NCBI GenBank assembly: GCA_947167105.1
Contig: CAMVGU010000013.1
Span: forward strand, 1 to 64,000
Source of the DNA: an uncultured Selenomonas sp.
GTDB taxonomy: Bacteria > Bacillota > Negativicutes > Selenomonadales > Selenomonadaceae
DNA length: 64,000 bases
Direction: 5' to 3'
Part shown: positions 31,371-56,116 of the stretch, piece by piece
Numbering within the stretch: the first letter of the stretch is position 1
Layout of the letters: every line of letters starts with the position of its first letter
Translations under genes and position numbers: made by a program
The notes under the pieces: generated by a model
Databases searched by the model: none
Told to the model about the DNA's origin: nothing
The model's input: only the letters and a program-made list of their open reading frames with translations

Positions 31371-32521
31371 CAGCATTCCCTCTCTTCCTGCAGCACGTCA
31401 CTGATACATTCCCGCACAATGTCCTTTTGCTCCTCGCTCATCTCCTCAGCGTAGGCTTCCCTGTAAAAATCTGCGAAAAGCTCCAGCTCATCCTTGTGCA
31501 AAATTTCCTGCCTGGAGGAAACATCTGCCTCCCCGCCGCCAGCAAGCGGGGCCTGCCTGATGCTCAGCGCATGGGGGAATACGTCCTGCAGCCGGGCCAT
31601 GGCATTCGGCACCATGCCGATGTCAGTCAACTCAATTTCCAGATAGTCATCACTGGCAGGATATTTTTCCCGATTGCCCAGGATTTCAGCAAAGGCTCCT
31701 TTCAGCCTGCGCATGTCCCGAGGCGGCGTCAGCTCCACGAAACTATGGGTGACTCTCCCCAGAGCATCCAGCTCCACAATCTCAGCCCCCTTTTTCTGGC
31801 CTTCCTCCCCAAAGGAATATTTCATCAGGGAGCCGCTGTATATGATAGTTTCCGCCCCTGCCTTCTGGGGCCCGTGCAAATGCCCCAGGGCAGCGTAGCT
31901 GAAAGGCTTGAATATTCCGGGCGAAACATTGGCCGAGCCCCCCACGGACAGGGGACGCTCCGAATCCCCTGCCTGTCCCCCTGCCAGGAAAGCGTGAGCC
32001 ACAGCCACCGAGCGCGCGCCCTTGGGTATGGAGCGGCAGATATCCTCTGCCAGCATCCGGCTTGCGCTGTCAAAGCTCAAAGTTTCCTCAAGCCCAAACA
32101 GGCGCCTCACCTGCAGCGACTCTGCATAGGGCAGCAGCGCAAAATACACCGGGCCATGCTTATCCTCCAGCACCACAGGCTGATTCCCACGGGAGGCAGC
32201 CCCCCGCACATAAATACCTGCCTTGGGTAGCAGCCTGCTGCCAAAGCCCAGCCTGAGGGCGCTGTCGTGATTGCCTGCAATATAGAGCACCGGCACCCCC
32301 AGCTCCTGCAATCTGCTCAGAACCTCATCAAACAGCGCCACAGCCTCCACCGGCGGTACGCCCCGGTCATATATATCCCCTGCAATGATTACGGCCTCCG
32401 CTTTTTCCTCCCTGACCAGGGGAAGAAATTCATTTTTCAGCAGTTTCTCCTGGTCGCCTGTCAGCACCGCATTATGGAAGCTCCGCCCCAGGTGCCAGTC
32501 TGCCGTGTGAATAAAGCGCAT
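31370..32521 (-). CDS. sbcD: Exonuclease SbcD (Mre11-like nuclease)
   Basis: Nuclease subunit of SbcCD. 383 residues from MRFIHTADWHLGRSFHN (GGAGG 7 bases upstream). Metallophosphoesterase motifs: HTADWHLG, AGDIYDRG, YIAGNHD and ALGHLHGPQ. Directly coupled to sbcC. Upstream of it, 62 bases away, ends the autotransporter gene. Confidence 0.97.
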   Translation of the reverse strand: MRFIHTADWHLGRSFHNAVLTGDQEKLLKNEFLPLVREEKAEAVIIAGDIYDRGVPPVEAVALFDEVLSRLQELGVPVLYIAGNHDSALRLGFGSRLLPKAGIYVRGAASRGNQPVVLEDKHGPVYFALLPYAESLQVRRLFGLEETLSFDSASRMLAEDICRSIPKGARSVAVAHAFLAGGQAGDSERPLSVGGSANVSPGIFKPFSYAALGHLHGPQKAGAETIIYSGSLMKYSFGEEGQKKGAEIVELDALGRVTHSFVELTPPRDMRRLKGAFAEILGNREKYPASDDYLEIELTDIGMVPNAMARLQDVFPHALSIRQAPLAGGGEADVSSRQEILHKDELELFADFYREAYAEEMSEEQKDIVRECISDVLQEEREC

Positions 32522-32583
32522 TGTATTTCCTCCAAACATATACAGTGTCCCGCAGGTACATCACAGCAACAGGTTGCACGCTC

Positions 32584-35159: not shown

Positions 35160-35372
35160 TTAATTATTGAATCCCCTCAAATAGGTTGCTAAATCATTCA
35201 GTAATTTTCCAGTTTTAGTCTCCTGTGTAGTATTTTTTGGCGTAAATCCACCTAAGCCTTTGAAATACTTACAATCATACGTGACTCCATCTTTTATGAA
35301 TGACCCTTTGCTCATAATGGACTTAACCAACATTGCACCGGACTGATCTTCTACCATAAATTGAAAATGCAT
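35160..35372 (-). pseudogene. Truncated N-terminal fragment of an ATPase-partner (TOPRIM-like) protein
   Basis: 70 residues from MHFQFMVEDQSGAML (GAGGGAG 5 bases upstream); a TTG six codons earlier overlaps the end of the ATPase gene by 8 bases. From memory, the pattern FxVEDQSG...YKGxGxxPKN...LLxxLxxyLRGy resembles the beginning of ~220-residue proteins encoded after AAA ATPases of the OLD/AAA_15 kind, whose later part carries a CDLDD acidic motif. Here the frame stops right after LRGFNN and no continuation is visible in the 62 bases before the autotransporter, so two thirds appear lost. It could instead be a genuine short protein. Confidence 0.5.
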
Positions 35373-35382
35373 GGCAACTCCC

Positions 35383-36606
35383 TCATCCAAAATATTCGCT
35401 ATACCAAAGGTCTCCCATATTGACCCCCTCTGCTACCAGGTCATTAACATGATCATAAGTACTAGCCTGTCGAAGCTCGGAGAAACCATCTGAATTTTTT
35501 TCTAAAACCCATACTTGATCAGGTGCAAGTGCATTGACAAAAAAAGGGCTATGTGTTGTTACAAATAATTGTTTAGTATATCCTGTGCCAACATTTTTTT
35601 TCATTTCTATAGCAAGATTTGCTAAATATTTATGATACAGTCCATTTTCCGGTTCCTCAACAAATATCAACTGCCGAGGATTTCTTTCGTGAAGCAACAG
35701 ATAATAAGCAAATAGCTTTAATGTTCCATCGGACATTCGCGGGGAGAAAAACGGCTTCTCAAAACCGGTCTGGTAAAATTTTAGCACCATTTGTCCATTT
35801 TCCAGCTTGAAGGGTTCAATTTTTTTTATATTTGGGATTTTCGATTGTATTTCAGATAGAATCTTTTTGAATTCATGCGGACTCTCACGGATCATATATT
35901 GAGCAACATTATTCAAATTGCTGCCAGTGCGATTTAGATGGGGCGATGGTGCGGCTGTTTGCAATTGTCTCGCTGCATCGGGCGTAAAATAACAAAGATA
36001 CCAGCTTTTTAAAAAAGCTAAGAATTTCTCTATACGGGAATACTGTTTCATGACCCCTAATGTGGCAATACCCAGCGTTCTGGTTTCTGATAATTCAATG
36101 GGTATCTGCTGGCCTTCGCTATGACCATCATCTTCCTGTCCGCCATCGGTTCCTTCGTAAGCATAGCCTTTGCCCTCGTTTAAATAAAGAAAGGAACGTG
36201 GACGACCGTATTTGTTCCCCTGTGCCCTCTGGCGTAATCTTTCTTCTTTAACATATGGTCTGTCATTCTTGTCTTTACTGATAGTGAGTTCATAAGTTAT
36301 AGGTCGGGAATTGTTGCTTTCCTTGTAGTATATTTCAAAGTGAATTGGCCCTGTATGATTCTGTGAAACTAATTGATCATAACCTCCACGATTTTTGGCA
36401 TCACAAGCACTTTCTACATCCCCATACAAGCAATCAGATATAAAACCAAAGGCATCAGCTATCGTACTTTTCCCATTGCCACTGGGGCCGATAATAGCCA
36501 CCATATTTCCAAGTTCTTTGCTGTCCTGCTCTCTGAACAATTTGCCCATTTTTATATCCTTCAGGGAACCATAGTTTTGAATTGCAATCCCTAAAATTTT
36601 ACCCAT
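35383..36606 (-). CDS. AAA_15/AAA_21-type ATPase (OLD-like, ABC ATPase fold)
   Basis: 407 residues from MGKILGIAIQNYGSLKDIKMG (GGAG 8 bases upstream). Walker A GPSGNGKST at 40-48, a long middle insertion, RMSDGTLKLFAYYLL (signature-like), Walker B LIFVEEPENGLYHKYLA near 313-328 and the His switch THSPFFVNAL near 351. This is the arrangement of stand-alone SMC-like ATPases found in anti-phage systems, usually working with a nuclease partner. Its partner gene downstream is truncated. Base composition is clearly more AT-rich than its neighbours, a sign of separate transfer. It follows the helicase by 31 bases. Confidence 0.85.
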   Translation of the reverse strand: MGKILGIAIQNYGSLKDIKMGKLFREQDSKELGNMVAIIGPSGNGKSTIADAFGFISDCLYGDVESACDAKNRGGYDQLVSQNHTGPIHFEIYYKESNNSRPITYELTISKDKNDRPYVKEERLRQRAQGNKYGRPRSFLYLNEGKGYAYEGTDGGQEDDGHSEGQQIPIELSETRTLGIATLGVMKQYSRIEKFLAFLKSWYLCYFTPDAARQLQTAAPSPHLNRTGSNLNNVAQYMIRESPHEFKKILSEIQSKIPNIKKIEPFKLENGQMVLKFYQTGFEKPFFSPRMSDGTLKLFAYYLLLHERNPRQLIFVEEPENGLYHKYLANLAIEMKKNVGTGYTKQLFVTTHSPFFVNALAPDQVWVLEKNSDGFSELRQASTYDHVNDLVAEGVNMGDLWYSEYFG

Positions 36607-36637
36607 TGTAAAATCTCCTTTAATATGAAAAGGCATA

Positions 36638-39460
36638 CTAACGATAGCTTCTACCCCGTCCTCTTAATAGCTGCGCCTGCGCTTCCTTCTTAGAAAGAAC
36701 CGTCTTGCAAAGGGACCAGTCACGGGTCTCTCTGGGAATATTATCGTACTTGACCACAAAGGGATTCTGCTGCATGACAAAGTCTATACGCTCCCTGGCC
36801 CTCTCTTCGTTGCCTTCCAAAATGTCAATCCATATATCTGAAAGAGTATCCGGTACCTGCCCAAACAAGTCATGCACGGCCTGCAAGCGCTCTGACAAGG
36901 CTTTATGGACTTTGTCTTCTATGGAGTCCTGATAGCGCAGGTTATAGACCTGCACCTCAGCGCTTACCTGCCCGATACGCTGAATGCGGCCTTTGCGCTG
37001 CTCCAAGCGGGTAGGATTCCAGGGCAGATCCAGATTTATCAGCGTGGAGAGTGTCTGCAAGTTCAAGCCTTCGCTGGCTGCATCTGTGCCCACCAGTATA
37101 CGTACACGCCGTTCACGCACCAGCTCTTTTAGCCTATCCTTCGTCTCCGGCTTGAAGCCTCCCTCAACATATACTCCCGACCTGTCACCACCGGCATAGA
37201 GCCCAATGATTTCATTAGGTATGACTTTAGCCAAATTCTCAGCCACAAATCTGGCGCTGTCATAATACTGGGAGAAAATAATGCAGCCTTGCTCCAGCCA
37301 GGGCCTGTCCTGGGCACTCACACCTTGCCGCAAAAGCTCCAGTGTTTTTTCAAATTTCGGATCTTCATCCTGGCAACTGCCCAGATGCTTTACCAGCAGG
37401 CGCAGGGCTTCCACTTCTTCAGTTGTAAGCGCCTTGACCGTGCTTTCTGCCTCCTCATCTGCTTCTTCCATTTCCATCTCAGCATCGAACTCATCTGCCA
37501 GAATGGCACGCCCTTCCTCTGTCCAGGCCAAAAGTTTTCGGGCAGTGGCTTCCCCTGCCGCTATGGTGCTGCCGATGCGTTTCAGCAACATAGTGGCAAG
37601 AAAGCCCCCGGCTTTGACCCGCCGGGACAGCATTTGGCAAAATGCCTCAGCCTGCCTATAGGCGTTCGCATAAGGCCCCATCAGAGGCAGGGCCTCCTTG
37701 TCATAGATTTTCACGGCTATACGGGGCAAATAGGGCCTCCCTGTTTCTGGATCAATGTGTTCCTCCAAGGTCTTGCGGGTGCGCCTGATGATATGCCTGA
37801 TATAAGGGTTCTCCGTATGCAGGAAATCATCCTCCATATAGAGATTCTCTGCCCGGTCGATTATCATCTGCCGCTGCTGCGTGAGCCAGCCATAGTCTTC
37901 CTTGGCAAGCACTTTTTGTTCGTCTGGAAGTCCCAGCCGCTGCCTGAAAATCATAAGATTTCGCGCTGCGTTTGTATCCAGAGTATAGGGCAGGGGCAGG
38001 GGGTTACGCATAATATCCCACATTTCAATGGGTTTTCTGGGTGGATGCCTGTCACCGCAGATGATGTCCAGCATGGTTTGCGGTGCCTTGCGCCAACAAC
38101 TCTGCTGATTGCCCAGTATGCCGTGAGCGCGGGACAGTTCAGCCGGGCTGAGGGCCGCGAGCAGGTCATATGCTTCTATGGTATGAGTCTGCACGGGCGT
38201 AGCCGTAGCCAAAAGTAGACTGTGGGTTCTCAGGGAAATTTGCTGAATGAAATCCAGCAGGAAATTTCTGTCCGCCTTGTGCTTGTCAGCGTCCTTGTCA
38301 GCATTCCTTCTGCGGGCGCGGTGTGCCTCGTCCAACACCACGCATTCATATTCCCTGGACAGCAAAAGGTCTCTTGCCTCTGTGCGCCGCGTCACCAATC
38401 CCTGGGACACCAGCCCTACCCGGCGAGGGCAGTTCAGGATGGATTTCGTGCCCTCAGCCTGATAAAAGAAGCCCTGCTCATCCTGCCAGCCATTTCCCAG
38501 CCAGATGGCGCTTGGCAGCTTAAGCAGGGAGAAAATTTCCTCCTGCCACTGGGAGAGCAGGGTCTTGGGCACAATGATGAGTACCGGCTTATCACCGTAA
38601 AGAGCCATAAGCTGGGCGGAAAGAGCCAGTTGCACTGTCTTTCCCAGTCCCACCTGATCGGCCAGCAGGAATCTGGCCCCCTCCGGAGTCAGATGAGCAC
38701 GGAAAGCCAGTTCAACAAAATATTTTTGATGTGCCCAAAGCCCTCGCTCCTGGCGAAAGACAGGCTCCTCCACTGCCACCTGCTCCGGCTTGGGTTCCTT
38801 CTCCTGCCGCCACTTGGAGAGGGGCAACACCTGTCTGCCGGAAATACGCTCTGCATCCTTTACCACAAAATCTGCCAGAGGCACAGCATATTCACTGTGC
38901 CAGAAAAAGTCAAACTCCGCCTGCATCCAGTCTGCAAGATTCGGGTCATCATCTTCCCAAACCAGCTCATAATTCAGGTCAAAGGCGCTTTTAGTCTCAT
39001 TGATGCTGCCCACAAAAGAGCTTCTCCTGCCATTGGCATAGGTGATGATGCCTCCTTTGCCGTGCATCAGCCCGTAAACTTCATCCGGCAGCACCCTGAT
39101 TTCCAGCTTGCTTCTGCCCTCTGCATCCTTCATCATCAGCCTGACGAAGCGGGCCAGACGCTCTTTTCCGGCAGGCTCCGTGTATTTATCCTCGGGGCAG
39201 GCAGCACACCATTCCTGCTGCATTGCCCGGCCAGATGACAGTGAATCTGCCAGTTTCGCCGCCCTGACATCCTCCGGCTGCAAATGGGAATTGCAGATCA
39301 CCCGCACCGTACCCGAGACATTTTCCAATGCCTCCCCTGCAATCTCCACAATGGCAGAAGTAAAGTACCCTGCCAGCCTGTCATAGGATTTTGCCCCTGC
39401 CAGGCGCTCTGACAAAAAATCTATCCCCAGTCCCCGCCGTGATGAATATGGATGTACCAT
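36638..39460 (-). CDS. PLD-nuclease/SNF2-type helicase of the defence cassette
   Basis: 940 residues from MVHPYSSRRGLG (GGAG 9 bases upstream); two earlier ATGs lack a ribosome site. N-terminal phospholipase-D-like domain: LMHGKGGIITYANGRRSSFVGSIN (about 131-154) gives the HxK...N pattern. Superfamily 2 helicase core: GLGKT at 271-275, VVLDEAH at 374-380, LLLATATPVQTH, and a C-terminal helicase half with ILVGTDAASEGLNLQTL and QRKGRIQRIGQ. Predicted to move on DNA and, through the PLD part, cut or bind it. Starts 4 bases after the methylase stop. Confidence 0.92.
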   Translation of the reverse strand: MVHPYSSRRGLGIDFLSERLAGAKSYDRLAGYFTSAIVEIAGEALENVSGTVRVICNSHLQPEDVRAAKLADSLSSGRAMQQEWCAACPEDKYTEPAGKERLARFVRLMMKDAEGRSKLEIRVLPDEVYGLMHGKGGIITYANGRRSSFVGSINETKSAFDLNYELVWEDDDPNLADWMQAEFDFFWHSEYAVPLADFVVKDAERISGRQVLPLSKWRQEKEPKPEQVAVEEPVFRQERGLWAHQKYFVELAFRAHLTPEGARFLLADQVGLGKTVQLALSAQLMALYGDKPVLIIVPKTLLSQWQEEIFSLLKLPSAIWLGNGWQDEQGFFYQAEGTKSILNCPRRVGLVSQGLVTRRTEARDLLLSREYECVVLDEAHRARRRNADKDADKHKADRNFLLDFIQQISLRTHSLLLATATPVQTHTIEAYDLLAALSPAELSRAHGILGNQQSCWRKAPQTMLDIICGDRHPPRKPIEMWDIMRNPLPLPYTLDTNAARNLMIFRQRLGLPDEQKVLAKEDYGWLTQQRQMIIDRAENLYMEDDFLHTENPYIRHIIRRTRKTLEEHIDPETGRPYLPRIAVKIYDKEALPLMGPYANAYRQAEAFCQMLSRRVKAGGFLATMLLKRIGSTIAAGEATARKLLAWTEEGRAILADEFDAEMEMEEADEEAESTVKALTTEEVEALRLLVKHLGSCQDEDPKFEKTLELLRQGVSAQDRPWLEQGCIIFSQYYDSARFVAENLAKVIPNEIIGLYAGGDRSGVYVEGGFKPETKDRLKELVRERRVRILVGTDAASEGLNLQTLSTLINLDLPWNPTRLEQRKGRIQRIGQVSAEVQVYNLRYQDSIEDKVHKALSERLQAVHDLFGQVPDTLSDIWIDILEGNEERARERIDFVMQQNPFVVKYDNIPRETRDWSLCKTVLSKKEAQAQLLRGRGRSYR

Positions 39461-39464
39461 CTGC

Positions 39465-42362
39465 TCACACTCCATCATGGGCCACCAGGGCCAGCAGCAT
39501 TTCCGCCATCTCGGCCGACTGGCTCCAATGTGCCTTCATATTGCCAATATCCTTGACTTCCATAAGAAAGCCAAGCAGAAGCTTCACCATCTCTCGCTGC
39601 TCCCAATAACTCGTAAGTTCCGTCCTGAGATAGGCAAGTGCGTTCTGGGGGTTCATATCGGCCTTTACACCTGCATAAATAGCCACAAAAATCGTTCGCA
39701 GCAAGGAGTGGGCAAAATCCGGCACATCATTTAAGGCCCTCTCTGCCATTTCCACAGGAGTCTTGAGCCTGGCAGTATTTGCCCGCTCGCTGGCCAGCAG
39801 TTGGCTGTAGCCGGCGATGCCAAAGCCTCTGGCATATTCCTGATAGGTGGCTATCTTATAGTCCCCGAGCTTTTCGCTTTCCAATCCCTTCAGATAGAAT
39901 TTCTCCGCCGGACTGAGGCTGCGCCATCTCTGCCTGTCGAAGCCGTGAGGTATGATGCAGCCATAGGCAATGTCCTTGGCCTTTTCAATCACCCGGACAA
40001 TCTGGCTGCCCTTGGGGCTGGTGATGGCTTTTTCCAGCTCGTAGTCCAAATCCAGCTCATCAATGGCTGCGTAAGAGGTAAGGACTTTCAAAGAAGCGGC
40101 ATAGGCGGCCAGCACATAATCCGGGTCGGAGAAATTAGGCTCCTCCGCATTATCCAGCCGTTCCATACTGGCAATCTGATTCTCCACTTCCTCCTGGATC
40201 TCCTCATAGACTTCATTCAGGAAAGCCTCATCCGTGCCTGTACGCCTCCGCAGCACCAGGAGCACAGTGCCTTTCACATAGTTGCCGGACTTCAGCCCGC
40301 TGGCATCTGTCTCAGTGACGATATTCCAGGCGGCAGTGACGGAAAGCCCTGCCTGCCAGAGAATCAGGGCCAGCTGTGCCCAGACCGCGGGACTGGAATG
40401 GGTAAACATGACAATCTGCATACCGTCTTCCGGCATATGGTTGGCAAGATTCGTGTAGATATCCACCATCGTCCGGGCAAAGCTGTCATCCCCCCGCACC
40501 GCCAGTACACGTTTGCTGTCCGTGTAGCCCTCGGGAAAAATGGCGGGCAACAGCTTTTTATCCCAGGCCAGAAAGTATTCGGAAAGCTCATGGTAATTTA
40601 CTGCATCCGCATAAGGGGGGTCGGTAATCCAGAAGCGAGCCGAATGGTGTACCTGGCGGGCATCGCAGAGGGAAACACTTGCATTAGTACGAATCGGATT
40701 TACATACTCCCCCATACCAAACCATAATGTTGCTAAACTTTCCGACGTTCTGCTCCCCCAGTTGAACATAGTATTTAACGCCTGATTGTAATAGGTCTGC
40801 GCCAATACATCACGAGCTGAAATCCAACGACACAATTTAGAATTAAAATCCACGCAACGATTCAGCCCCAAAATCCCCGCTGCCTTAGCCGCCTGATTTC
40901 CCTCCCCTTGCACCTGCTCCGCCAGCAGGGCCAGCACCAGTAGTTGCCTGGGAGTAAAGAGCTGATGCCAGTAACGCCAGCCTCGTTCTCTTATGATTTG
41001 GTCTGTGTTGTACCCTGATTCAATGCCCATACCGGGCACCAGCCCCTCGACCTGCCACTTGGCAAAATGCGCCGCCACATAATTATGCACCGCCGCTTCA
41101 TTGCCTAAGTCCCTGGCATCCGGGGCCGTGTAATAACGCACTCTGTGCTTCTCGTCAATCTGCTTTTCATAACGGATAGCATAGAGCCTGTCCTGATAGA
41201 GATCCTCCGGGCGCGGCTCCCACTCATCCTGCTCCCACTGGCGCAAGCCGTAAATGACAGCGCCATCCTCCCCTGTGCGGTCACGGCGCAGGGCGGTTAT
41301 GGGAGTACTGCGATGGCAATGGGGGCAGATGAGCTCACTGTTTTTCACCGTGCCCGCCTCTGCTGCGTCTTTCAGCCCTGCTGTGTCCGTTTCCACAATA
41401 TCAATGTGGAATTCTCTCCCCTCCGGCCTTTCCCGCAGCACTGCCCTGACCTGCCCTGCCCTTGCTCCCACAACCAGAGAGGGCAGCAGGGGCACCTTCC
41501 AACCACATTCCGGACAGGTGGCTTCCACGCAGTAGAGGTAGGACAGGGCCTGGGCGCCATTTGCCCCCCGCTCTATGCCAAGTGCCTCTATCTGCCTTTT
41601 TACATTGTCATAGGCCCTCTGCTGAAACTTTCGCACCTGCTGCCGTGTGGCTTCATCCGCTCCCGCCAGGTGGATATCCGCCCAGGTGAGCAGCCCTGCA
41701 ATGGGATTCAGGTCGCTGGCCACCACCTCACAGCCCAACCGTGCCGCTTCAAAGGGAATGGAGCCACCCCCGGCAAAGCAGTCTCCCACCGAAAGCCTTT
41801 CCCCGTAACGCTTTTTTGACATTTCCTCTATGAATTCCTGCAGGCTCCGGGCCTTAGTGCCGCAATGGCCGTTGATCTTCTCCCAGGTTTTTTCACCTAA
41901 GTTTTCCATTTCCTCGGAACGCAGGGCACCGGCGATTTTCTCATCGTAGTTCAAAGTCTCCCAAGCCAGCCGCTCCAGCTCCTCACGCTCCCTGGGAGGC
42001 ATTTCCCTGGGCCAGCGGCTTCCCCACGCCTTATATTCCGCTTCATGGGCCTGATAGAATTCCGGTTGTTTCTCCGCCAGTATTTCCAGCACGGCTCTGC
42101 AGGAGAGGGGCTTGCGACGCTGCCACAAGCTTTCACTATCCATGCCCATCAGCCGCAGGAAAGTCTCCATATCCCCCTGCTTGTCCGAAGTAGCCGGCAG
42201 CAGGCAGCCCAAAATAGCCCCCCGCACCAAAGTCAAGGGCTTCCTGCCCCACCACTTCCCCAACCCCGTGATGGTCTGCCCCTGGGAGGACTTGCGCTCC
42301 TTATAGCATTCCTTGGATAGCTTGCTCACCGGGAATTGCTCTTCGATAAATGATTTGCTCAC
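39465..42362 (-). CDS. DUF1156 adenine-specific DNA methyltransferase (COG1743)
   Basis: 965 residues from a GTG (VSKSFIEEQFPV; GGGAGG 9 bases upstream); a longer frame adds 41 residues unlike the family. The DUF1156 start block FPVSKLSKECYKERKS and TGLGKWWGRKPL precede the SAM site DCFAGGGSIPFEAARLG (194-210) and the N6-adenine catalytic motif DPPY near 580 (ITDPPYADAVNYHELSE). Two zinc ribbons, CPECGW near 282 and CPHCHR near 345, sit between. The family includes, as I recall, PglXI of type 3 BREX. It should mark host DNA. No pglZ or brx genes are present. Lies 16 bases after the antitoxin gene. Confidence 0.93.
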   Translation of the reverse strand: MSKSFIEEQFPVSKLSKECYKERKSSQGQTITGLGKWWGRKPLTLVRGAILGCLLPATSDKQGDMETFLRLMGMDSESLWQRRKPLSCRAVLEILAEKQPEFYQAHEAEYKAWGSRWPREMPPREREELERLAWETLNYDEKIAGALRSEEMENLGEKTWEKINGHCGTKARSLQEFIEEMSKKRYGERLSVGDCFAGGGSIPFEAARLGCEVVASDLNPIAGLLTWADIHLAGADEATRQQVRKFQQRAYDNVKRQIEALGIERGANGAQALSYLYCVEATCPECGWKVPLLPSLVVGARAGQVRAVLRERPEGREFHIDIVETDTAGLKDAAEAGTVKNSELICPHCHRSTPITALRRDRTGEDGAVIYGLRQWEQDEWEPRPEDLYQDRLYAIRYEKQIDEKHRVRYYTAPDARDLGNEAAVHNYVAAHFAKWQVEGLVPGMGIESGYNTDQIIRERGWRYWHQLFTPRQLLVLALLAEQVQGEGNQAAKAAGILGLNRCVDFNSKLCRWISARDVLAQTYYNQALNTMFNWGSRTSESLATLWFGMGEYVNPIRTNASVSLCDARQVHHSARFWITDPPYADAVNYHELSEYFLAWDKKLLPAIFPEGYTDSKRVLAVRGDDSFARTMVDIYTNLANHMPEDGMQIVMFTHSSPAVWAQLALILWQAGLSVTAAWNIVTETDASGLKSGNYVKGTVLLVLRRRTGTDEAFLNEVYEEIQEEVENQIASMERLDNAEEPNFSDPDYVLAAYAASLKVLTSYAAIDELDLDYELEKAITSPKGSQIVRVIEKAKDIAYGCIIPHGFDRQRWRSLSPAEKFYLKGLESEKLGDYKIATYQEYARGFGIAGYSQLLASERANTARLKTPVEMAERALNDVPDFAHSLLRTIFVAIYAGVKADMNPQNALAYLRTELTSYWEQREMVKLLLGFLMEVKDIGNMKAHWSQSAEMAEMLLALVAHDGV

Positions 42363-42378
42363 TTGGCACTGCCTCCCT

Positions 42379-42669
42379 TTAAGTACCGACTTTTTTGGGA
42401 GTAAAGGATATATTGAGCACCATCCCCATACCATCGGCAAGCCTTTGCAGCAACCTGATGGAGGGATTTCTGGAGCCGTTTTCAATGCGGCTTATTTCCG
42501 TCTGGGCAATGCCTGTTCGCTCAGCCAGTTCCTTCTGAGTAAGGTTATTGGAAGTTCTGGCATCAATGATGGCACGAATAATATTGAATTCCGGCTGCAT
42601 TTCCTCGTATGCCTTGGCAAATTCAGGGTCACGCATACACTCACCCTTAAACTGTTGCAGACTTTTCAT
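42379..42669 (-). CDS. XRE-family antitoxin (HigA-like)
   Basis: 96 residues from MKSLQQFKGECM; a GTG three codons earlier is the alternative start. Helix-turn-helix LTQKELAERTGIAQTEISRIENG (about residues 44-66), flanked N-terminally by a segment matching HigA partners of Gp49-type toxins. Its start overlaps the toxin gene by 23 bases. Expected to bind the toxin and repress the pair's promoter. Confidence 0.88.
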   Translation of the reverse strand: MKSLQQFKGECMRDPEFAKAYEEMQPEFNIIRAIIDARTSNNLTQKELAERTGIAQTEISRIENGSRNPSIRLLQRLADGMGMVLNISFTPKKVGT

Positions 42670-43021
42670 TTTCCTCACGCTTTCTACGAATATAGTCCTC
42701 TCGGCGACTTTTAGCTATTCTGATTTCTTCCAGCGGTGTTTTTTGTGTCTTTTTGATAAAGCAATTGGTGATGATGATCTTTCCTTCAATGCAAAAGAAA
42801 AATAATGCTCGTGTCAGATTGTTACCAAGTTTACAACGCAGTTCAAATATACCATCAACCAAATGCTTGGTATACGGTTCACGCAGGGACGTTCCCTTAT
42901 CCTCTAACACTTCCATCAGGCTGACCAGCTTGGCTCGCATTTTACTGTCTAACCCTAAAAGAAAATCCTCAACCGGTGTTTTCCCGTCAGCAGTTTCGTA
43001 AAATTCAACTTCAAAATTCAT
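42647..43021 (-). CDS. Type II toxin, HigB/Gp49-like (RelE fold)
   Basis: 124 residues from MNFEVEFYETADGKTPV (GAGG 9 bases upstream). Hallmarks of the phage Gp49/DUF891 group: EDFLLGLDSKMRAKL, GIFELRCKLGNNLTRALFFF and KKTQKTPLEEI. Such toxins cleave mRNA at the ribosome. The toxin-before-antitoxin order is typical of HigBA. The module interrupts the defence cassette between DUF3780 and the methylase. Confidence 0.9.
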   Translation of the reverse strand: MNFEVEFYETADGKTPVEDFLLGLDSKMRAKLVSLMEVLEDKGTSLREPYTKHLVDGIFELRCKLGNNLTRALFFFCIEGKIIITNCFIKKTQKTPLEEIRIAKSRREDYIRRKREENEKSATV

Positions 43022-43089
43022 TTACATCTACCTCAACAATATTATATGAAATATATCTCATATTGTCAAAAGTAATCGTCAGTTGATTC

Positions 43090-43345
43090 CTACAATATAA
43101 AACATCCCAGCCTTCCCCTCTACTCCCACCACCGCTTCGCGGTCCCCCGCCCCCAATGGGGGCGGACTTTTGCAGCGCTGCGCAGAAGACAACGGTAATC
43201 CCGCGCCCAGGGATGGGCGCTGCCGCCCTCGTTCTCCAAGGAAGGGAACAAGGGCGGCGGTTTTCTTTGGTTAATTTCTTTGTCCACACAAAGAAAGTAA
43301 CACCACGAGCCATGCCCGCTAGCGAAAAAAGCCCTCCTCAAGGGA
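43090..43345. repeat. Non-coding dispersed structured repeat
   Basis: A series of palindromes in the 335-base gap before the toxin: ACCGCTTCGCGGT; GCCCCCAATGGGGGC; CCGCCCTCGTTC (43222-43233) with its near complement ending at 43260; and TTTCTTTGT (43275-43283) with ACAAAGAAA (43288-43296). Base usage differs sharply from the genes, and the minus-strand reading (VTFFVWTKKLTKENRR) matches a repeat often mis-annotated as a gene. I consider it an inserted element, not coding. Confidence 0.6.
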
Positions 43346-43356
43346 AGGCTTTTTCT

Positions 43357-43911
43357 TTAACGAGTATAAGTCGTTTCTGTGAGTTCCAGCCCCACAGCCT
43401 GGGGCTCGTCCACAGGATTTTCACAGAGAATATAGCGCAGAGCCATGCGCCAGCCCTTTCTGTCCCCCAGTTTCCCGGAGGCAGCATTGGTCATGGTATA
43501 GAGCCACCAGCGTTCCTCCGGCAGGAACCCCTGCCAGTTACGGATAGCTCTGGGGATACCGGCGGATTCATTGTATTCGATGCCCCACAGCAGCACCAGA
43601 AGCTCCTTGCCAAGCTGCCGCTCCAGGGCAGTCCCCCCCGTGGCAAATTTGCCCACGGGCTTTTTGGCTTCCTTCAAGCGGCGATTGAACTCTGCCGTCA
43701 CATCTTTCTGCACCGCCTCCCATTTGCGGCGGGGGACCCTCAGCTTCAATATGTCTCCGGCCTCCAAGGGTTGCTCGGTGTCCGGTGCCTCGGCCCAGCC
43801 AAAGCGTTCATAGACCTCCACAGGCTCCTTACGGTCTTTGGGCTTCACTATATAGAAATGGTTGCTCGTTTCCACGGGATTATATCCAAAGCCGGCGTAG
43901 CCCTTTTTCAT
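43357..43911 (-). CDS. DUF3780 protein of the defence cassette
   Basis: 184 residues, MKKGYAGFGYNPVETSNHFYIV at the start. The family has no known activity; it occurs with DUF499 ATPases and DUF1156 methylases. Visible features are an aromatic, Trp-rich centre (LVLLWGIEYNESAGIPRAIRNWQGFLPEERWWLYTMTNAASG) and no Cys pairs or membrane segments. Overlaps the DUF499 gene by 4 bases (ATGA), so the two are co-translated and probably interact. Confidence 0.88.
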   Translation of the reverse strand: MKKGYAGFGYNPVETSNHFYIVKPKDRKEPVEVYERFGWAEAPDTEQPLEAGDILKLRVPRRKWEAVQKDVTAEFNRRLKEAKKPVGKFATGGTALERQLGKELLVLLWGIEYNESAGIPRAIRNWQGFLPEERWWLYTMTNAASGKLGDRKGWRMALRYILCENPVDEPQAVGLELTETTYTR

Positions 43912-46900
43912 TGCTCGATATCTCCTTCGTGTCCCAGCTTCGATAAGTCAAATTTCCTGCGGGCAGCCCATTCCTTAAACTTGGCACCGCTCTTAAAAAG
44001 TAAGCGCTTGTACTCCAGGGTCACTTCTGATTCCAGATTTTGCCTGCGGAAGCTGCGCTCGCGCACGAAATCAATAATCTCCTGCATATTCTTGGGAGCA
44101 TATACTGCATTAGTTGTCAAATCAACGTAGCTGCGCCCGTTGCTTTTATCACTGATAACCGCAGTGACATCCTGCAAAGATACCTCTCCCAGCGCTGCTA
44201 GTTCCTCCAGCTCCTTGTAGACAGCAGAAGTGTCAGAAAGATTCTTCTTTGACCTATAGACAAAGGTTAAGGCTCTCTCTTCATCAATTTCATGCGCTGC
44301 TGATCGTCCCCCATGTTCTATGGAAATAGACTTGTTGTCTATTATCTCCCCATTATACAGGGCCACCACCCGCACATAGCGGCAGTCCTCGGGCACATGG
44401 ATATCCTGGCCGTCATAGAGGCTGCCGTTTTCCCTTGGCTCACTGCCGTCTGTTGTGTAATACACATCATAGTGCTCATTGACAGAAAGGGTCACCACCC
44501 TGCCCTCCGGAGTGAGCCTGTCCCCATACTTGATGGGTGCATGGCAGATATGCTCCACCACAGGGCCTGCCTCTCGCCTGCCCGTGGGGTCAATGCAGAG
44601 GAAGCGCAGGCATGGCTCCCTGCTGGTCATTATATTCCCCTGCACCTCATGGGAGGCCGTGGTGGGGTCAGCACCTATGTCATAGTAGACTGTGCCCCCC
44701 ACACCATGCACCCGCAGGGTAAAGACTTGCGTCTCACAGTCATAACTCACATCCTCCACCTGCACTTCTGTAGGCTCTAGCTGGAAAGGACCTTTCTGCA
44801 AGTACCCCCCTGTCTCCCGCCATACATCCTTCTTCAACGCATCCTGCCTGAGTGCCTCCATCTGGTCAGGATGATACCATTCCCAAGAAGGCATGGTGGC
44901 AGCACGATCAAGAATCTGCGACCACTGCATTTCCTTCTGGGTAAAGAGGCGCTGCTCGCACTTCCGCACCAGGGTGGAGAGAAAAGCATCCTCCCTGGAA
45001 AAATCGCTGTACTTGTGGTTTTCCTTCAGGCAGTTTATGATTTGCTCCTCGCCGTCAAAGTGATTATCCTTGAATTCCAGCTTGAAATCGGCACTGCGGA
45101 TTCTGTAATTTTCATTGCGACCTATAGGATAATACAGAGTAACAAAAGTCTCGCGAATGGTAGAAAAAAGGTTCTGTATTGCCTTGTCCAGATGAGCCTC
45201 CGCCTCTATATACTGCTGGTCGCGCTCAGAGAGATGCTCTGCCTTCATTTTTTCCACAATGCTCTGAATAGCCTTCAGGCGCTTGCTGTTTTCATAGAGT
45301 TTCTCCATCATATCCCGTTCCCCTGACAGGAACATCACGCGGTTCTTGTATGAAGTCTCCTCGTAAAAAGCCTGCAAATCAGGATGCAGTTCCCTGCCGG
45401 GGTGGGGTTCAAAAATCACCAGACTGATATCCTCCCGGCTAAGAGCTATTTCATCCACCGCAGGGAATACAAAGACCTTCTGATAGCAGCTTTTCAGGCC
45501 TGGCTTGAAATTTTCGGCAAGGATTTTCCTTAATTCTTTGCGGGCATTTTCCGGGGTGTAGGACTGCATCAAAGTATTCATCTCAGCTACCATATTTTTG
45601 GTATCCTGATAGTAGATAAGGCCCCGGTTATCCGTCTTGATATACCAGCAGTCGCTTTTGAGCCTGCCTATGACTTCCTGGACGATGTTGAAATCAACCC
45701 CAGGCTCCGCCGCAAAGCCGCAAGCATCATTTTCCGTCAGTCCCAGTGTACCCTGCATGGCAGTAGAGAGGGAGGAAAACAGGAGCATGCGGGCCATGCG
45801 TCCTGCGTAATCCTTGCCATCACCGCGCTCCGCGTCCACAGCCTCTGCCACCGAGCGCCCCTGTTGGGCAATATCATGGCTGACGGCATTCTCCAGTGAC
45901 GGCTTGATGCTCCTGACCATGGAGAAAAGGCGTTCCTGATTCAAGTCAATGTCATAAACATGAATCAGGCTTTTCTGCTCTGCCATACCGCTCTCGTAGA
46001 ACCGACGCACAATCTGACGCATCAGCTTCAAAAGTCCCCTGGTTTGCCGGACACTGGTATTTTCCTTAAAACGGGCATAAAGCTCCTTCAAACCGGGATG
46101 AAAGGGATAGGAATCCGTCACTCCCTGATAAACAGCCGCCTCGGAATAGTTGGTGATGCCCAGCTTGCGAGCCTTGCCCACCGCCTCCTTATAGGCAATG
46201 GCAATCTCATTCTTATCCTGAGCATAATTATTTGAAATAGGCTCGTTTTCAAATAAGCGCACCCGCATGATGTCGTATACTTCATCGGAATTGTGCTTGA
46301 CCGGCTGCACATCCCTGGCCTGTCGCTCCACTTCGGATTTCAGATCATCCAACTGAGAGAATGCCTGCTGCACCATCTGACTGCCCACTTCGTAGGCTGC
46401 ATCCAGATCAGACAGCACCACGCAAACCTGGGAGAGTTCCTTCCTGCCCAAGGCACTGAACAGATTGGAAAGTGCTCTGGTGGTTACCACTGCCAAATCC
46501 GCATTGCCGATTTTTTCCGTACGGGCATAGTCCAGATAGGGGGGCAACTCATCCAAAAGCAGCAGGACTTTCTGCCCCTTTAAGAGGTTCACCCAGGCAT
46601 TTTCCCCCGGTGCTTTCATCTGCTTGTTATATTCCCTGAACAGCTCCCCCTGCCCCAACTGCTCGGAAATACTGCCCCAAATGCCATACTCGTAGTTCTC
46701 CCGACCGGAAATTGTCACCACCTTGATTTCCCCTAAATCCACATATTCCCGGTTCAGCATGCTCTTCCTGAGTTCTGCATGCTGTGCCAAAAGTCCTGTG
46801 GCTATCATGCAATGGGTCTTGCCGCCTCCCATGGCCTGGGTAAGCTTCACCAGCCCCGTATCTGATTTGCCGGCAAACCTTGCAAACACGATATCCAGAA

Positions 46901-47054
46901 GCATCCTCATGCCTTGAGTCATGTAGTTTTCCCTAAAAAAAGCTTCTGCATCCACCTTTCCCTCAGCAAAATCTGTCAAGTTCAGTACATCCTCCTGCGC
47001 TGTATCTGCAAATACAGATTCACGCGGTTTCAGCATCATGGCTAGTGGCTTCAT
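43908..47054 (-). CDS. DUF499 AAA+ ATPase of the defence cassette
   Basis: 1048 residues, GGAG 8 bases before MKPLAMMLKPRES. Walker A LTQAMGGGKTHCMI (71-84), Walker B KVLLLLDELPPYLDYA (about 162-177), then a long helical region. Unusual: near 770-830 and 835-905 are two beta-domain segments, VYYDIGADPTTAS and VYYTTDGSEPRENGSLYDG, the second being the CHB_HEX_C-like YTTDGSxP motif. DUF499 proteins are predicted cassette ATPases, comparable in role to BrxC/PglY. First gene of the cassette, 48 bases after addA with no terminator between. Confidence 0.92.
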   Translation of the reverse strand: MKPLAMMLKPRESVFADTAQEDVLNLTDFAEGKVDAEAFFRENYMTQGMRMLLDIVFARFAGKSDTGLVKLTQAMGGGKTHCMIATGLLAQHAELRKSMLNREYVDLGEIKVVTISGRENYEYGIWGSISEQLGQGELFREYNKQMKAPGENAWVNLLKGQKVLLLLDELPPYLDYARTEKIGNADLAVVTTRALSNLFSALGRKELSQVCVVLSDLDAAYEVGSQMVQQAFSQLDDLKSEVERQARDVQPVKHNSDEVYDIMRVRLFENEPISNNYAQDKNEIAIAYKEAVGKARKLGITNYSEAAVYQGVTDSYPFHPGLKELYARFKENTSVRQTRGLLKLMRQIVRRFYESGMAEQKSLIHVYDIDLNQERLFSMVRSIKPSLENAVSHDIAQQGRSVAEAVDAERGDGKDYAGRMARMLLFSSLSTAMQGTLGLTENDACGFAAEPGVDFNIVQEVIGRLKSDCWYIKTDNRGLIYYQDTKNMVAEMNTLMQSYTPENARKELRKILAENFKPGLKSCYQKVFVFPAVDEIALSREDISLVIFEPHPGRELHPDLQAFYEETSYKNRVMFLSGERDMMEKLYENSKRLKAIQSIVEKMKAEHLSERDQQYIEAEAHLDKAIQNLFSTIRETFVTLYYPIGRNENYRIRSADFKLEFKDNHFDGEEQIINCLKENHKYSDFSREDAFLSTLVRKCEQRLFTQKEMQWSQILDRAATMPSWEWYHPDQMEALRQDALKKDVWRETGGYLQKGPFQLEPTEVQVEDVSYDCETQVFTLRVHGVGGTVYYDIGADPTTASHEVQGNIMTSREPCLRFLCIDPTGRREAGPVVEHICHAPIKYGDRLTPEGRVVTLSVNEHYDVYYTTDGSEPRENGSLYDGQDIHVPEDCRYVRVVALYNGEIIDNKSISIEHGGRSAAHEIDEERALTFVYRSKKNLSDTSAVYKELEELAALGEVSLQDVTAVISDKSNGRSYVDLTTNAVYAPKNMQEIIDFVRERSFRRQNLESEVTLEYKRLLFKSGAKFKEWAARRKFDLSKLGHEGDIEQ

Positions 47055-47102: not shown

Positions 47103-50100
47103 TTATGTCATCGCCACCGCTTTGCCGCTGCGCAAGAGGTAGAGATAGCATTCATCCAGCGGTCGCTGCCAGATGGCACTAATGGCTTCGCTGTAGAGCA
47201 TGATCTGCACACGATAGCGCTCCCTGGCATGTTCTGGGTTGGGGTCGCGGTCTGTCTTATAGTCCAGCAGCACCAGATGGCCCTCCCTGTCCTCGAATAC
47301 CACATCAACAATGCCCTGCACAAAGACCGTGGCGGCCTCATCCTGCACCTGACTGTAAAAGCGCCTGGCCGGCAGCAGGCGGCTGAAAGGCAGTTCCCTG
47401 TAGACACGGCGGGCTTCCCTCAGCCTTTGGCCCAGAGGAGATTGCAGGAAAGCTGCGATACGTCCCACATCTACATATGGAGCCTGGCTATCCTGCAGTA
47501 GCCCCCGCTCCTGCATATTCTTCAGTTGCCGCTTCACAGCAGCCAGGCTGGGCTGACAGGAAAAATCCAGATGCTGCATTACTAAGTGCAGCAGGGTGCC
47601 ACGCTCTGTTGCGGTCAACCCCTGGGGCCCTTCTGCCTGCTCCTGCAGGAAGCGGGGGCGTCGCCAGGCCGCTGTCTCCTCCTGGGGCAGTCCCGGCTCT
47701 AAGAGTTGCGGTTCCTCCGGCACCAGCCCGTCCAATGCCTCGGCTGCCGTGAACATCTGCTTGATTTCCGTGACGGAGAGCTTCGCCGGAACCTGGGCAA
47801 GGCCCCGCTCCTCATAGTGCCAGCCCAGCACCTCCTGCACCTCTCCCGCCCTGTCAGTACCGGGGAGAGGCTGCATCTTCTGCACTGCCAGCAAAATGGG
47901 GTCATCGGCTGCGCTGCGCAGTTCCTGCACCGCCACGGCGGAGCCTGGCACAAGCTGAACGGCCAGCTCAGCCCCTATCTCCAGCTCCAGCCCCCAATCC
48001 AGGTATTTCTCCGGCAGCTGCGCCAGCTCGCGCAGGCAGCGACCGCCAGTATGCCTTGCTGCCGCAGGCGCCAGCCAATCCAGGAATGTATTGGCACCGG
48101 CCAGGCTTTCCACCCTGAGCTGCGGCGCGCTTTCCCCCACCTGGGCGCACCATTTCTGTGCCTGCACAGCAGCTTTCTCCCTGTCCCCGCTGACGCTGCC
48201 CACCAAAATGAGCTTCTCCCTGGCCCTGGTCATGGCAACATAGAGCACACGCAATTCCTCGGCCTTGGCCTCTGCAATCAGCCGTCGGGAAACGAGCTGC
48301 CAGGGCAAGGTCTGATAGCGCTGCCTGCCCGCCGCACTGCGGGAAACCAGTTGCGGCCCGATGCCCAGCTCCTGATGCAGCAGGAAGGTGCCCCTGGCAT
48401 CGGTCAGGTTGAATTTCTTGCCCAGGTCAGCCATAATGACCACCGGGAATTCCAGTCCCTTGCTCTTATGCACGCTCATGATGCGCACAACATTCTCGCT
48501 GGCCCCCAGAGTACGGGCCACGGAAAGATCTGTCTCCCGCTTCTTCAATTCTTCGATAAAACGCAAGAAGCGGAACAGCCCCCGGTAATTCGTCTGCTCG
48601 TATTCTGCTGCCCGATCTGCCAGCATGCGCAGATTCGCTTGCCGAAGGAGCCCTCCCCGCAGGCTGCCCACATAATCGTAGTAGCCTGTATCGCGGTAAA
48701 GTTTCCAGATGAGCTCCGGCACGCTGTGGCTGACTGCAAAAGAGCGCCACTCTGCCAGCTTCTGCTGGAACCCGGCAGCCTTGTGCCTGAGCCCCGGCGC
48801 AAGCTGCGAGTCCAGTTCCTGGGCACTGAGCAAGGCTGTGTAGAGATCTTCCTTTTCCGCCACCAGGCGCAAGGTGCCCAGCTCCGTCATGGTAAAGCCC
48901 CCCAGGGGCGAGGCCAGCACCGCTGCCAGGGGGATATCCTGGCGGGCATTGTCCACCACCGCCAAGAGATCCAGCACCAGCCTGACCTCATGTGCCTCGA
49001 AATAGCCGCCGCTGACATCCGCATAGGCGGGGATGCTGCTGCGCCGCAGGACTTCCAGCAGGATATCCGCCTTGCCCGTAACTGCACGCAGCAGCACCGC
49101 AATATCCCGGAAGGCAATGGGTCTGTATTCCCCCCCCACAAACACCATATACCCTGCCTCAATAAGAGCTGCAATACGCCCGGCGATATGCTGGGCTTCC
49201 AGTTCAAAGCCTTTCAGTTCCCCGGCAGCGCTCTCTGCGTCCTCCCCTGTTTCTGCGGCACTATTTTCTCCGGACAGGATGATATCCAGTTCCACAGGGC
49301 CTGCCAGGGTTCGTGTGCCCGCAGGCGGCTCCGGGTAAGCCGCGCCGGGATAGAGCTTGCTCTGGTCATCATAGTCGATTTCCATGGGCTCCTTGCGCAT
49401 AAGCTGATCAAAAAAGAAATTGACCGGCGAGAGCACCTCCGCCCGACTGCGGAAATTCTGCCTCATGGTAATCAACTGATTCTCATCCCCCCGCCCCGGC
49501 TCCAGGGGAAAGGATTCATACTGCCTCTGGAACAAATGTGGATTCGCCAAACGGAAACGGTAGATGCTCTGCTTGACATCACCGACGACGAAGCGGCTGC
49601 GAGGCGGCGCAACCAGCGCGAGGATGGCCTCCTGCACGCTGTTCGTATCCTGGTACTCGTCCACCATGACTTCCTTGAATTTATGCTGCAGCTCCAATGC
49701 CACCTCGCTGGGCTGATAGCTGTCCTGCTTCAAGCCTGCGGAATCAGCCCCATCAGGTGTGCGCCTCAATATCTGCAACGCATAGTGCTCCAGATCGTCG
49801 AAGTCCAGCACACGCCGCTCCTGCTTGGCTGCGCGGAAAGCCTGGCAAAAATCCAGCGTCAGCTGCGTATAGCGGCGCACCGTAGGCGCGCACTCTGCCA
49901 GCTCCCCCAAAAGTTCTTCCTCACCCAACTGAAAATATCGCTCCTGCAAATTCTTGACCTTCTCCTTGACAGCATCCCGTCGCTGTTCAAAGCCTGTGCG
50001 CAGGGCAGGATATTTTTCCTTCAAGGGCTTGAACTTGTTACCCCGCAGGGCAGGCACCCGGAAGGCCCCACAAGCCTGACGCAGCGTTTCCCAATCCCTG

Positions 50101-50981
50101 CCTGCCAGCAGGAACGGGTCCAGGGATTCATGGAGGCCCGCCGCCACTTCCAGGTAAGGTGCCAGGCAATTTTCCAGCTCGGCACGGTAAAAAACATCCC
50201 CGGCCTCCTGGTAAGCACCTGCAATCAGCCATGTGTCCAGGGCTTCTGCCTCCCGTGCCAGTCCGCTGCGGGCCTGCTCCAACTGCTGCCAGAGTTCCCG
50301 CCCCCAGGAAGTTTCCCACAGCCCTGCCTCCCCCCGGAAATTGCTTGCCTGCCGCAGCAGCCAGGCTTCCGGCTCCGGCTGGCTCCGGCTGAATTCATAG
50401 AGCTGCAGCACAGCCCCGCAGACAGCCTCGTCTCCCTTGTCATTGCCATAATCATCCACAAAGGCCAGGAAATCCAGCCAGTCAGCCCTGGCCGCATTAT
50501 ATTCATCCTCATCGGCAAAATTTTCCCGCTCCGGCTCCCGATAATGCTCCTCCAGTAAATCCTCCAGTACATCACGCTTCAGAAGCGCCATTTCCTGCTC
50601 ACCGGCCAGGCGGAACTGGGGATCTGCATCCACCAGCTCGATATGCTGGCGAATGAGGCGCTGGCAGAATACATGGAAGGTGCTGATATGTGCGCCCGTG
50701 AGCAGCACCAGTTGACGATCCAGGCGGCGCGCCTTGCCAGCCTCCCCTGCCTCCGCCAGCTCCCTGCGCAGTTCCTTCTCAATGCGCTCGCGCATCTCCA
50801 TTGCCGCCGCATTCGTAAAGGTCACCACCAGCAGCTCGTCCACATTGCATTCCCCGGCCAGCAGGCGCTGCACTATGCGATCCACCAGCACCCGGGTCTT
50901 GCCGGAACCGGCTGCGGCAGCCACAAGTATATTATGTCCCCGTGCCGAGATGGCTTTTTTTTGGTCCTCTGTGTATTCCAC
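47103..50981 (-). CDS. addA: ATP-dependent helicase/nuclease AddA
   Basis: Helicase-nuclease subunit of AddAB, the RecBCD counterpart that resects double-strand ends and degrades phage DNA. 1292 residues from GTG (MEYTEDQKKAISARG; GAGG in front lies within a 19-base repeat). UvrD-type motifs: VAAAAGSGKTRVLV, MVDEYQDTN, SVHKSKGLEFPVV, VAMTRAREKLIL; C-terminal RecB-type nuclease with VQGIVDVVFEDREGHLVLLDYKTDRD. An ATPase gene separates it from addB. Confidence 0.97.
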   Translation of the reverse strand: MEYTEDQKKAISARGHNILVAAAAGSGKTRVLVDRIVQRLLAGECNVDELLVVTFTNAAAMEMRERIEKELRRELAEAGEAGKARRLDRQLVLLTGAHISTFHVFCQRLIRQHIELVDADPQFRLAGEQEMALLKRDVLEDLLEEHYREPERENFADEDEYNAARADWLDFLAFVDDYGNDKGDEAVCGAVLQLYEFSRSQPEPEAWLLRQASNFRGEAGLWETSWGRELWQQLEQARSGLAREAEALDTWLIAGAYQEAGDVFYRAELENCLAPYLEVAAGLHESLDPFLLAGRDWETLRQACGAFRVPALRGNKFKPLKEKYPALRTGFEQRRDAVKEKVKNLQERYFQLGEEELLGELAECAPTVRRYTQLTLDFCQAFRAAKQERRVLDFDDLEHYALQILRRTPDGADSAGLKQDSYQPSEVALELQHKFKEVMVDEYQDTNSVQEAILALVAPPRSRFVVGDVKQSIYRFRLANPHLFQRQYESFPLEPGRGDENQLITMRQNFRSRAEVLSPVNFFFDQLMRKEPMEIDYDDQSKLYPGAAYPEPPAGTRTLAGPVELDIILSGENSAAETGEDAESAAGELKGFELEAQHIAGRIAALIEAGYMVFVGGEYRPIAFRDIAVLLRAVTGKADILLEVLRRSSIPAYADVSGGYFEAHEVRLVLDLLAVVDNARQDIPLAAVLASPLGGFTMTELGTLRLVAEKEDLYTALLSAQELDSQLAPGLRHKAAGFQQKLAEWRSFAVSHSVPELIWKLYRDTGYYDYVGSLRGGLLRQANLRMLADRAAEYEQTNYRGLFRFLRFIEELKKRETDLSVARTLGASENVVRIMSVHKSKGLEFPVVIMADLGKKFNLTDARGTFLLHQELGIGPQLVSRSAAGRQRYQTLPWQLVSRRLIAEAKAEELRVLYVAMTRAREKLILVGSVSGDREKAAVQAQKWCAQVGESAPQLRVESLAGANTFLDWLAPAAARHTGGRCLRELAQLPEKYLDWGLELEIGAELAVQLVPGSAVAVQELRSAADDPILLAVQKMQPLPGTDRAGEVQEVLGWHYEERGLAQVPAKLSVTEIKQMFTAAEALDGLVPEEPQLLEPGLPQEETAAWRRPRFLQEQAEGPQGLTATERGTLLHLVMQHLDFSCQPSLAAVKRQLKNMQERGLLQDSQAPYVDVGRIAAFLQSPLGQRLREARRVYRELPFSRLLPARRFYSQVQDEAATVFVQGIVDVVFEDREGHLVLLDYKTDRDPNPEHARERYRVQIMLYSEAISAIWQRPLDECYLYLLRSGKAVAMT

Positions 50982-52451: not shown

Positions 52452-52470
52452 CGCTGCCTCAGCCTTTCTT
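52452..52470. repeat. 19-bp direct repeat, right copy (addB end)
   Basis: Identical to 50981-50999; here it overlaps the true 3' end and stop codon of addB (52459-52461). Confidence 0.85.
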
Positions 52471-56037: not shown

Positions 56038-56052
56038 TTCCCGGCCCCCCGA

Positions 56053-56088
56053 TAAAAAAGAACTGCTGCACACATGTATGTGCAGCAG
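56053..56088 (-). terminator. Terminator between the PaaK-like gene and addB
   Basis: CTGCTGCACA pairs with TGTGCAGCAG, followed by TTCTTTTTT on the minus strand. It separates addB from the upstream gene, so addB needs its own promoter in the short gap. Confidence 0.85.
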
Positions 56089-56116
56089 CCCCACAAATCA
56101 ACATTTTAACATTTTC

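Follow-up and report, generated by a model that had tools for sequence, protein, structure and literature searches.

The stretch analyzed here, referred to as the window, comprises the first 64,000 nucleotides (nt) of contig CAMVGU010000013.1 from an uncultured Selenomonas sp. (assembly GCA_947167105.1), and the subject is a defense cassette at positions 35160-47054, with all genes on the minus strand. The initial annotation had described seven minus-strand defense genes in this region; all seven are present, and their families are upheld by three concurring libraries (Pfam, PADLOC and NCBIfam). The lower limit of 35160 coincides with the end of an eighth, short open reading frame (ORF), a DUF4276 stub that had been missed. 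The features, from upstream to downstream, are as follows (aa, amino acids):

43908-47054, minus strand: DUF499 AAA+ ATPase, 1048 aa (Pfam DUF499 97.7 bits, cut-off 23; PADLOC DUF499 583.6 bits)
43357-43911, minus strand: DUF3780 protein, 184 aa (Pfam PF12635 148.5 bits)
43125-43369, minus strand: 245-nt dispersed repeat that reaches into the 3' end of the DUF3780 gene and lies upstream of HigBA
43041-43069, minus strand: putative HigBA promoter, TTGACA-17-TATAAT (12/12 positions of the sigma-70 consensus), whose spacer palindrome at 43063-43044 is a putative HigA operator
42647-43021, minus strand: HigB toxin, Gp49 family, 124 aa (Pfam PF05973 87.7 bits; solved HigB 6af3, E 2.6e-12)
42379-42669, minus strand: HigA antitoxin, HTH_3 (59.2 bits on ORF 42379-42678; start ATG 42669)
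39465-42362, minus strand: DUF1156 DNA methyltransferase, 965 aa (NCBIfam NF042963 1224.3 bits, cut-off 1000, scored on a longer ORF)
36638-39478, minus strand: PLD-SNF2 helicase, 946 aa (NCBIfam NF042964 1124.1 bits, cut-off 1100)
35383-36636, minus strand: AAA_21 ATPase, 417 aa, accessory (Pfam AAA_21 98.9 bits; PADLOC HEC-01A 553.3 bits)
35160-35372, minus strand: truncated DUF4276 partner, an N-terminal stub of 70 aa (64% identity to residues 1-69 of a 219-aa relative, L209)

Judged by its gene families and their order, the core of the cassette is a known kind of locus and ordinary as such, namely the Type-2 bacteriophage exclusion (BREX)-Related system of PMC12839542. It consists of a DUF499 ATPase, a standalone DUF3780 protein, a DUF1156 methyltransferase and an SNF2 helicase with an N-terminal PLD domain, and the four proteins match their NCBIfam models with E-values from 1.8e-40 to 0. 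The reading as a novel system, implied by the initial annotation, was rejected, since all four genes have models in NCBIfam (anti-phage models NF042961-NF042964) and PADLOC, and the system has already been named and modeled in PMC12839542. The family calls of the annotation hold. In the parts of PMC12839542 available to us, Type-2 BREX-Related systems are reported from 1120 taxa and comprise a DUF499 ATPase, a standalone DUF3780 protein (98% of taxa), an N6-methyltransferase and an HKD-SNF2 helicase; FnIII-like domains lie within DUF499 in 53%, and PIN, HEPN, Schlafen, HNH and OLD effectors occur within or beside such loci. The window agrees with this description in the order of the four core genes, in an Fn3_assoc/CHB_HEX_C_1-type Pfam match within the DUF499 protein (residues 853-904), and in an OLD/AAA_21-type ATPase adjoining the core. 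It differs in carrying HigBA with its own putative promoter inside the core, together with the truncated DUF4276 partner. The main text of PMC12839542, so far as available, contains no mention of HigB, DarT, a promoter or DUF4276, and within the open-licence literature it is the only paper that combines two of DUF1156, DUF499 and DUF3780. Two earlier proposals, a methylase related to that of Type 3 BREX and a methylation-discriminating anti-phage role, agree with the family libraries and with this source; there, too, the mechanism (sensing, marking, cutting) is inferred, so that the earlier statement that it has not been described in detail stands within the same limits.

All four core reading frames are full length. 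The methyltransferase retains the GDCFAGGG and TDPPY stretches, and the helicase, with Pfam domains PLDc_2 (residues 25-193), SNF2-rel_dom and Helicase_C, retains VGLGKT, DEAH and HGK...GSINE. The window deviates at 11/165, 1/30 and 11/196 otherwise-invariant columns in alignments of the methyltransferase, the DUF3780 protein and the helicase, respectively; these changes are mostly conservative, a few are non-conservative, and none falls within the checked active-site stretches. The very probable start codon of the methyltransferase is GTG 42362, which is preceded by a GGGAGG stretch, rather than the mechanically assigned TTG 42485, which would overlap higA. For the DUF3780 protein, AlphaFold2 gave a good model (predicted local distance difference test 90.0, predicted template modeling score 0.84), for which Foldseek returned no match at E <= 0.001 in the PDB or a viral library, and VIA-align gave a top Z of 4.9 across 68 residues; a profile search of PDB sequences likewise returned nothing credible. 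These searches with a predicted model show neither a function nor a new fold. The system known as Gao_RL presumably consists of the same four genes, in which case HigBA and the truncated DUF4276 partner would set the window apart from it. The name Gao_RL is that used in DefenseFinder and also appears in PMC12452197.

To place the cassette among its relatives, loci were taken from DUF3780-bearing genomes, the best 80 of 528 genome-contig relatives, 26 of 39 viral-labelled contigs and 12 plasmid records, giving 139 loci, or 133 after removal of four duplicates and two without a methyltransferase. The initial annotation had made recurrent co-occurrence of the four genes its own test, and they do recur in the same order: DUF499-DUF3780-methyltransferase-helicase is near-invariant among the 133 loci, with relatives from many phyla. 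Among 398 genomes of the phylum, 20 contain DUF3780, as do 2 of 60 nearer relatives (the genome of origin being counted in both). The nearest locus found belongs to a Selenomonas metagenome-assembled genome (L046), in which the DUF499 protein, methyltransferase and helicase are 72-74% identical and the DUF3780 protein 77% identical to those of the window. Among phage records, matches were confined to parts of the methyltransferase, in four records of Sulfolobus viruses. Three loci are unusual. One has the order methyltransferase, DUF3780, methyltransferase, DUF499, with no helicase seen (L059); in a second, the methyltransferase is present as two pieces 1315 nt apart, the gene being seemingly interrupted (L038:10342-14557); and in a third, a 241-aa ORF at the DUF3780 position (L145:9255-9980), with a diverged EERWWL...GWRRAL recognized by eye, is probably a distant DUF3780 that escaped the profile.

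The least ordinary part of the cassette is the HigBA pair, which the initial annotation had placed in brackets. A Gp49 toxin gene is followed by a helix-turn-helix antitoxin gene. In these respects and in its promoter palindrome, the module resembles the HigBA Gp49 family as described in the available part of PMC11980606, and it differs in that a defense methyltransferase begins 16 nt downstream of higA. According to the same source, Gp49 toxins act as ribosome-dependent mRNases, and palindromes in the promoter are bound by HigA and HigBA of E. coli. ORF 43011-43313, also considered as HigA, was rejected: at E <= 0.01 it matches nothing in Pfam, PADLOC or NCBIfam, it overlaps the dispersed repeat, and it is probably spurious.

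Several lines of evidence bear on the origin of the pair. The nearest locus, L046, provides an empty site, in which HigBA is lacking and the methyltransferase and DUF3780 genes overlap by 4 nt. DNA homology between the window's HigBA and seven relatives begins, in six cases, exactly where the -35 box does (43069) and, in the seventh, at 43076, and ends at 42413-42375; no core gene was found in the 4.5-7 kb fetched around these seven. The promoter is one of two with a 12/12 match in the 64-kb window, and 300 Markov resamples of 16.2 kb contained no such match. TTGAC of the -35 box is conserved in 8/8 aligned HigBA copies, and the spacer palindrome is clear, with small changes, in 7/8. The homology bounds, the promoter and the occurrence of relatives without core genes together suggest that HigBA came into the operon as a free-standing module that brought its regulator and promoter along. 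As a sign of HigA autoregulation, the palindrome is suggestive only. Upstream, the dispersed repeat has a 96% identical copy on another contig of the same genome (C40; L256) and partial 94-96% copies in a further genome (G002), and it contains a hairpin at 43354-43326 that is followed by U residues and is terminator-like (-24.7 kcal/mol, z -3.68). A part near the end of the repeat (GGACCGCGAAGCGGTGGTGGG) occurs five times in the genome of origin, with similar pieces in many relatives.

The position taken by HigBA was then compared with the other gaps of the core. With an insertion defined as more than 300 nt (our choice of threshold), insertions occur in 0/119 loci between DUF499 and DUF3780, 15/124 between DUF3780 and the methyltransferase, and 27/123 between the methyltransferase and the helicase; a 200-nt threshold would give two loci for the first gap, L090 (247 nt) and L222 (260 nt). 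Fisher p values against the first gap are 4e-5 and 3e-9, respectively, both optimistic, as the loci are related. Toxin-antitoxin modules account for 7 of the 15 insertions between DUF3780 and the methyltransferase, which contain the following:

HigBA: the window
Phd-VapC: L043, a Deinococcus plasmid
MNT-HepT: L052
PIN toxin, preceded by a 70-aa ORF without a Pfam match: L099
DarTG: L142, L147 and L150 (the latter two recognized by eye)
AAA-DUF3696 ATPase, together with a protein whose C-terminal domain is YoeB-like: L102:7891-9989 and L115:8001-9992
Schlafen AlbA_2 protein: L066
GIY-YIG: L100
unknown proteins: L103
DUF5131 with opposite-strand ORFs: L117
IS1 transposase: L136
six ORFs, not family-scanned: L110

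The three DarTG loci form one lineage, with methyltransferases 71-77% identical, and the toxin-antitoxin modules thus represent about five separate acquisitions. The insertions of L102 and L115 resemble the ptuXYZ locus as it appears in the available part of PMC11980606. In the methyltransferase-helicase gap, 38 proteins from 24 of the 27 loci were scanned, with matches to SLFN_AlbA_2 (6), AAA_21 (4) and PIN (2, in L122 and L222), and single matches to AbiEii, VapB, GmrSD, HNH, RloB and Fic, among others.

The methyltransferase and the helicase-nuclease are probably transcribed from a promoter regulated by HigA, as we infer from the promoter with its palindrome, the terminator-bearing repeat upstream and the 16-nt gap between higA and the methyltransferase. 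On the other side, DUF499 is separated from addA by 48 nt that contain no clear T-run terminator, so that transcription of DUF499-DUF3780 may come from addBA. The interpretation we favor, with modest confidence, is that of a Type-2 BREX-Related, restriction-modification-like anti-phage operon that took in a HigBA module and works as follows. The DUF499 ATPase and the DUF3780 protein would survey DNA, the DUF1156 enzyme would mark host adenines, and the SNF2-PLD protein would travel on unmarked DNA and cut it. HigBA would have brought its own HigA-controlled promoter and would sit behind the terminator-bearing repeat, with the methyltransferase, the helicase-nuclease and the last ATPase transcribed together with higBA, and DUF499-DUF3780 read from upstream. 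Silencing or loss of the higBA-methyltransferase transcript would then free HigB, which might serve as a suicide backup and also bind the cell to the locus. A HigBA module embedded with a conserved promoter in a Type-2 BREX-Related operon was not found in the open-licence literature. If a toxin-antitoxin operator does govern the cutting enzyme as well as the methyltransferase, two layers of defense that are usually separate would share one switch; the core is catalogued, and the embedded HigBA yields a direct, testable prediction about its regulation.

A number of observations weigh against this interpretation. As regards the core, the DUF499 and DUF3780 proteins score below NCBI's own cut-offs (708.8 bits against NF042962, cut-off 1200; 138.7 bits against NF042961, cut-off 200). 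The classical HKD motif contains an aspartate; in the helicase, this position is a threonine and is variable in relatives, with H, K and the GS-N-E stretch conserved. As regards the promoter, the -10 box is not conserved across the seven HigBA relatives, the right half of the palindrome has diverged in one (L263), and two others (L257 and L258) share HigBA neighbors and are therefore non-independent. The E. coli palindrome-binding result concerns another HigB family. The region contains 22 terminator-like sites versus 16.1 +/- 3.8 in shuffles, which makes a lone site weak evidence, and the presence of a repeat copy at the junction carries a small risk of misassembly. In other loci, the distance from DUF3780 to the toxin-antitoxin module is 71 nt (L043), 5 nt (L052), 24 nt (L099) or -4 nt (L142), so that the window alone shows promoter capture combined with a terminator.

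The main competing explanation, possible although clearly less probable, is that HigBA is a passenger, that is, a mobile module at a tolerated landing site with no defense role, the core working by read-through or by accidental use of the HigBA promoter. HigB relatives are indeed common in unrelated places (66/200 relative genomes, the genome of origin included), a plain repeat adjoins HigBA, and the same gap receives many kinds of insertion, including the IS1 transposase of L136. However, the measured toxin-antitoxin modules of both gaps lie on the coding strand and near the next core gene, and DarTG is retained in three loci whose methyltransferases differ by 23-29%. A broader version of the favored interpretation, which we regard as doubtful, would make the DUF3780-methyltransferase gap a recurrent docking site for unrelated toxin-antitoxin modules, hard-wiring antitoxin production to self-methylation; silencing of the methyltransferase transcript by a phage or a deletion would release the toxin, and in the window HigA would have come to control transcription of the methyltransferase and the nuclease. 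HigBA, Phd-VapC, MNT-HepT and DarTG offer natural replicates for the question of whether toxin-antitoxin modules guard restriction-like systems.

It is improbable that the locus is decaying, with an operon broken by insertion, an accessory pair without an effector and defense lost. The truncation of DUF4276, the altered end of the DUF3780 gene at the repeat insertion and the terminator between DUF3780 and the methyltransferase are what decay would predict, but the full-length core frames, the unchanged active-site stretches among those checked and the mostly conservative deviations described above speak for an intact core. That the cassette is itself a BREX, DISARM (defense island system associated with restriction-modification) or Hma system is very improbable, since despite a common ATPase, methyltransferase and helicase ancestry and weaker PADLOC matches to HmaA/B/C, DrmD and BrxH models, its own PADLOC models score 3.6-8.5 times the best Hma models (730.8/890.4/583.6 versus 136.8/105.2/162.6 bits for HmaA/HmaB/HmaC), and the marks of the other two systems are missing from the locus. 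For BREX, PglZ (PF08665), whose absence had been claimed, has no match in the whole genome of origin (2/14 control genomes match), BrxL not having been searched genome-wide. For DISARM, the MZB domain (PF09369), which we take to be the mark of DrmB, has a single match in the genome, on contig C9 away from the cassette, so that the earlier claim of absence holds for DrmB at the locus; DrmA was not searched genome-wide. Hma, in the available part of PMC8565338, shares with the window a helicase, a methyltransferase and a DUF499-type ATPase, whereas the window adds DUF3780 and the PLD domain.

The accessory pair at the downstream end is probably inactive: with a truncated effector gene beside it, the last ATPase is probably idle. 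Among relatives of this ATPase with a readable neighbor, the five closest (L209-L213) are each followed by a gene for a 218-225-aa protein that matches the 70-aa stub, and the family name DUF4276 was obtained on the L209 protein. Homology to DUF4276 ends at about 35165, just before an autotransporter gene, and the remainder was not found in the 64-kb window. The AAA_21-DUF4276 pair (PADLOC HEC-01A) and OLD-ABC/TOPRIM modules such as PARIS have the ATPase in common with the window, whose partner is cut to 70 aa; the intact effector gene beside the ATPase that characterizes an OLD/AAA_21 and TOPRIM-type pair is therefore lacking. No relative of the last ATPase was found in L046.

In the three same-genus genomes in which the stretch after addA is readable (G001, G003 and G005), other genes lie there. 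No integrase or target repeat for the cassette was found, although no systematic search was made. In G003, a serine-recombinase-like ORF, recognized by eye, follows addA on the other strand (L191:6181-7701), and the site may attract mobile DNA. An AAA_14/DUF4143 gene (51033-52289) lies between addB (52459-56094) and addA (47103-50981) in the window; in four other genomes of the genus, these two overlap and no gene separates them. The sbcC/sbcD genes (28302-32539) are possibly of other origin, as SbcD shares only 36-38% identity with the corresponding proteins of five same-genus genomes, compared with 61-65% for AddA.

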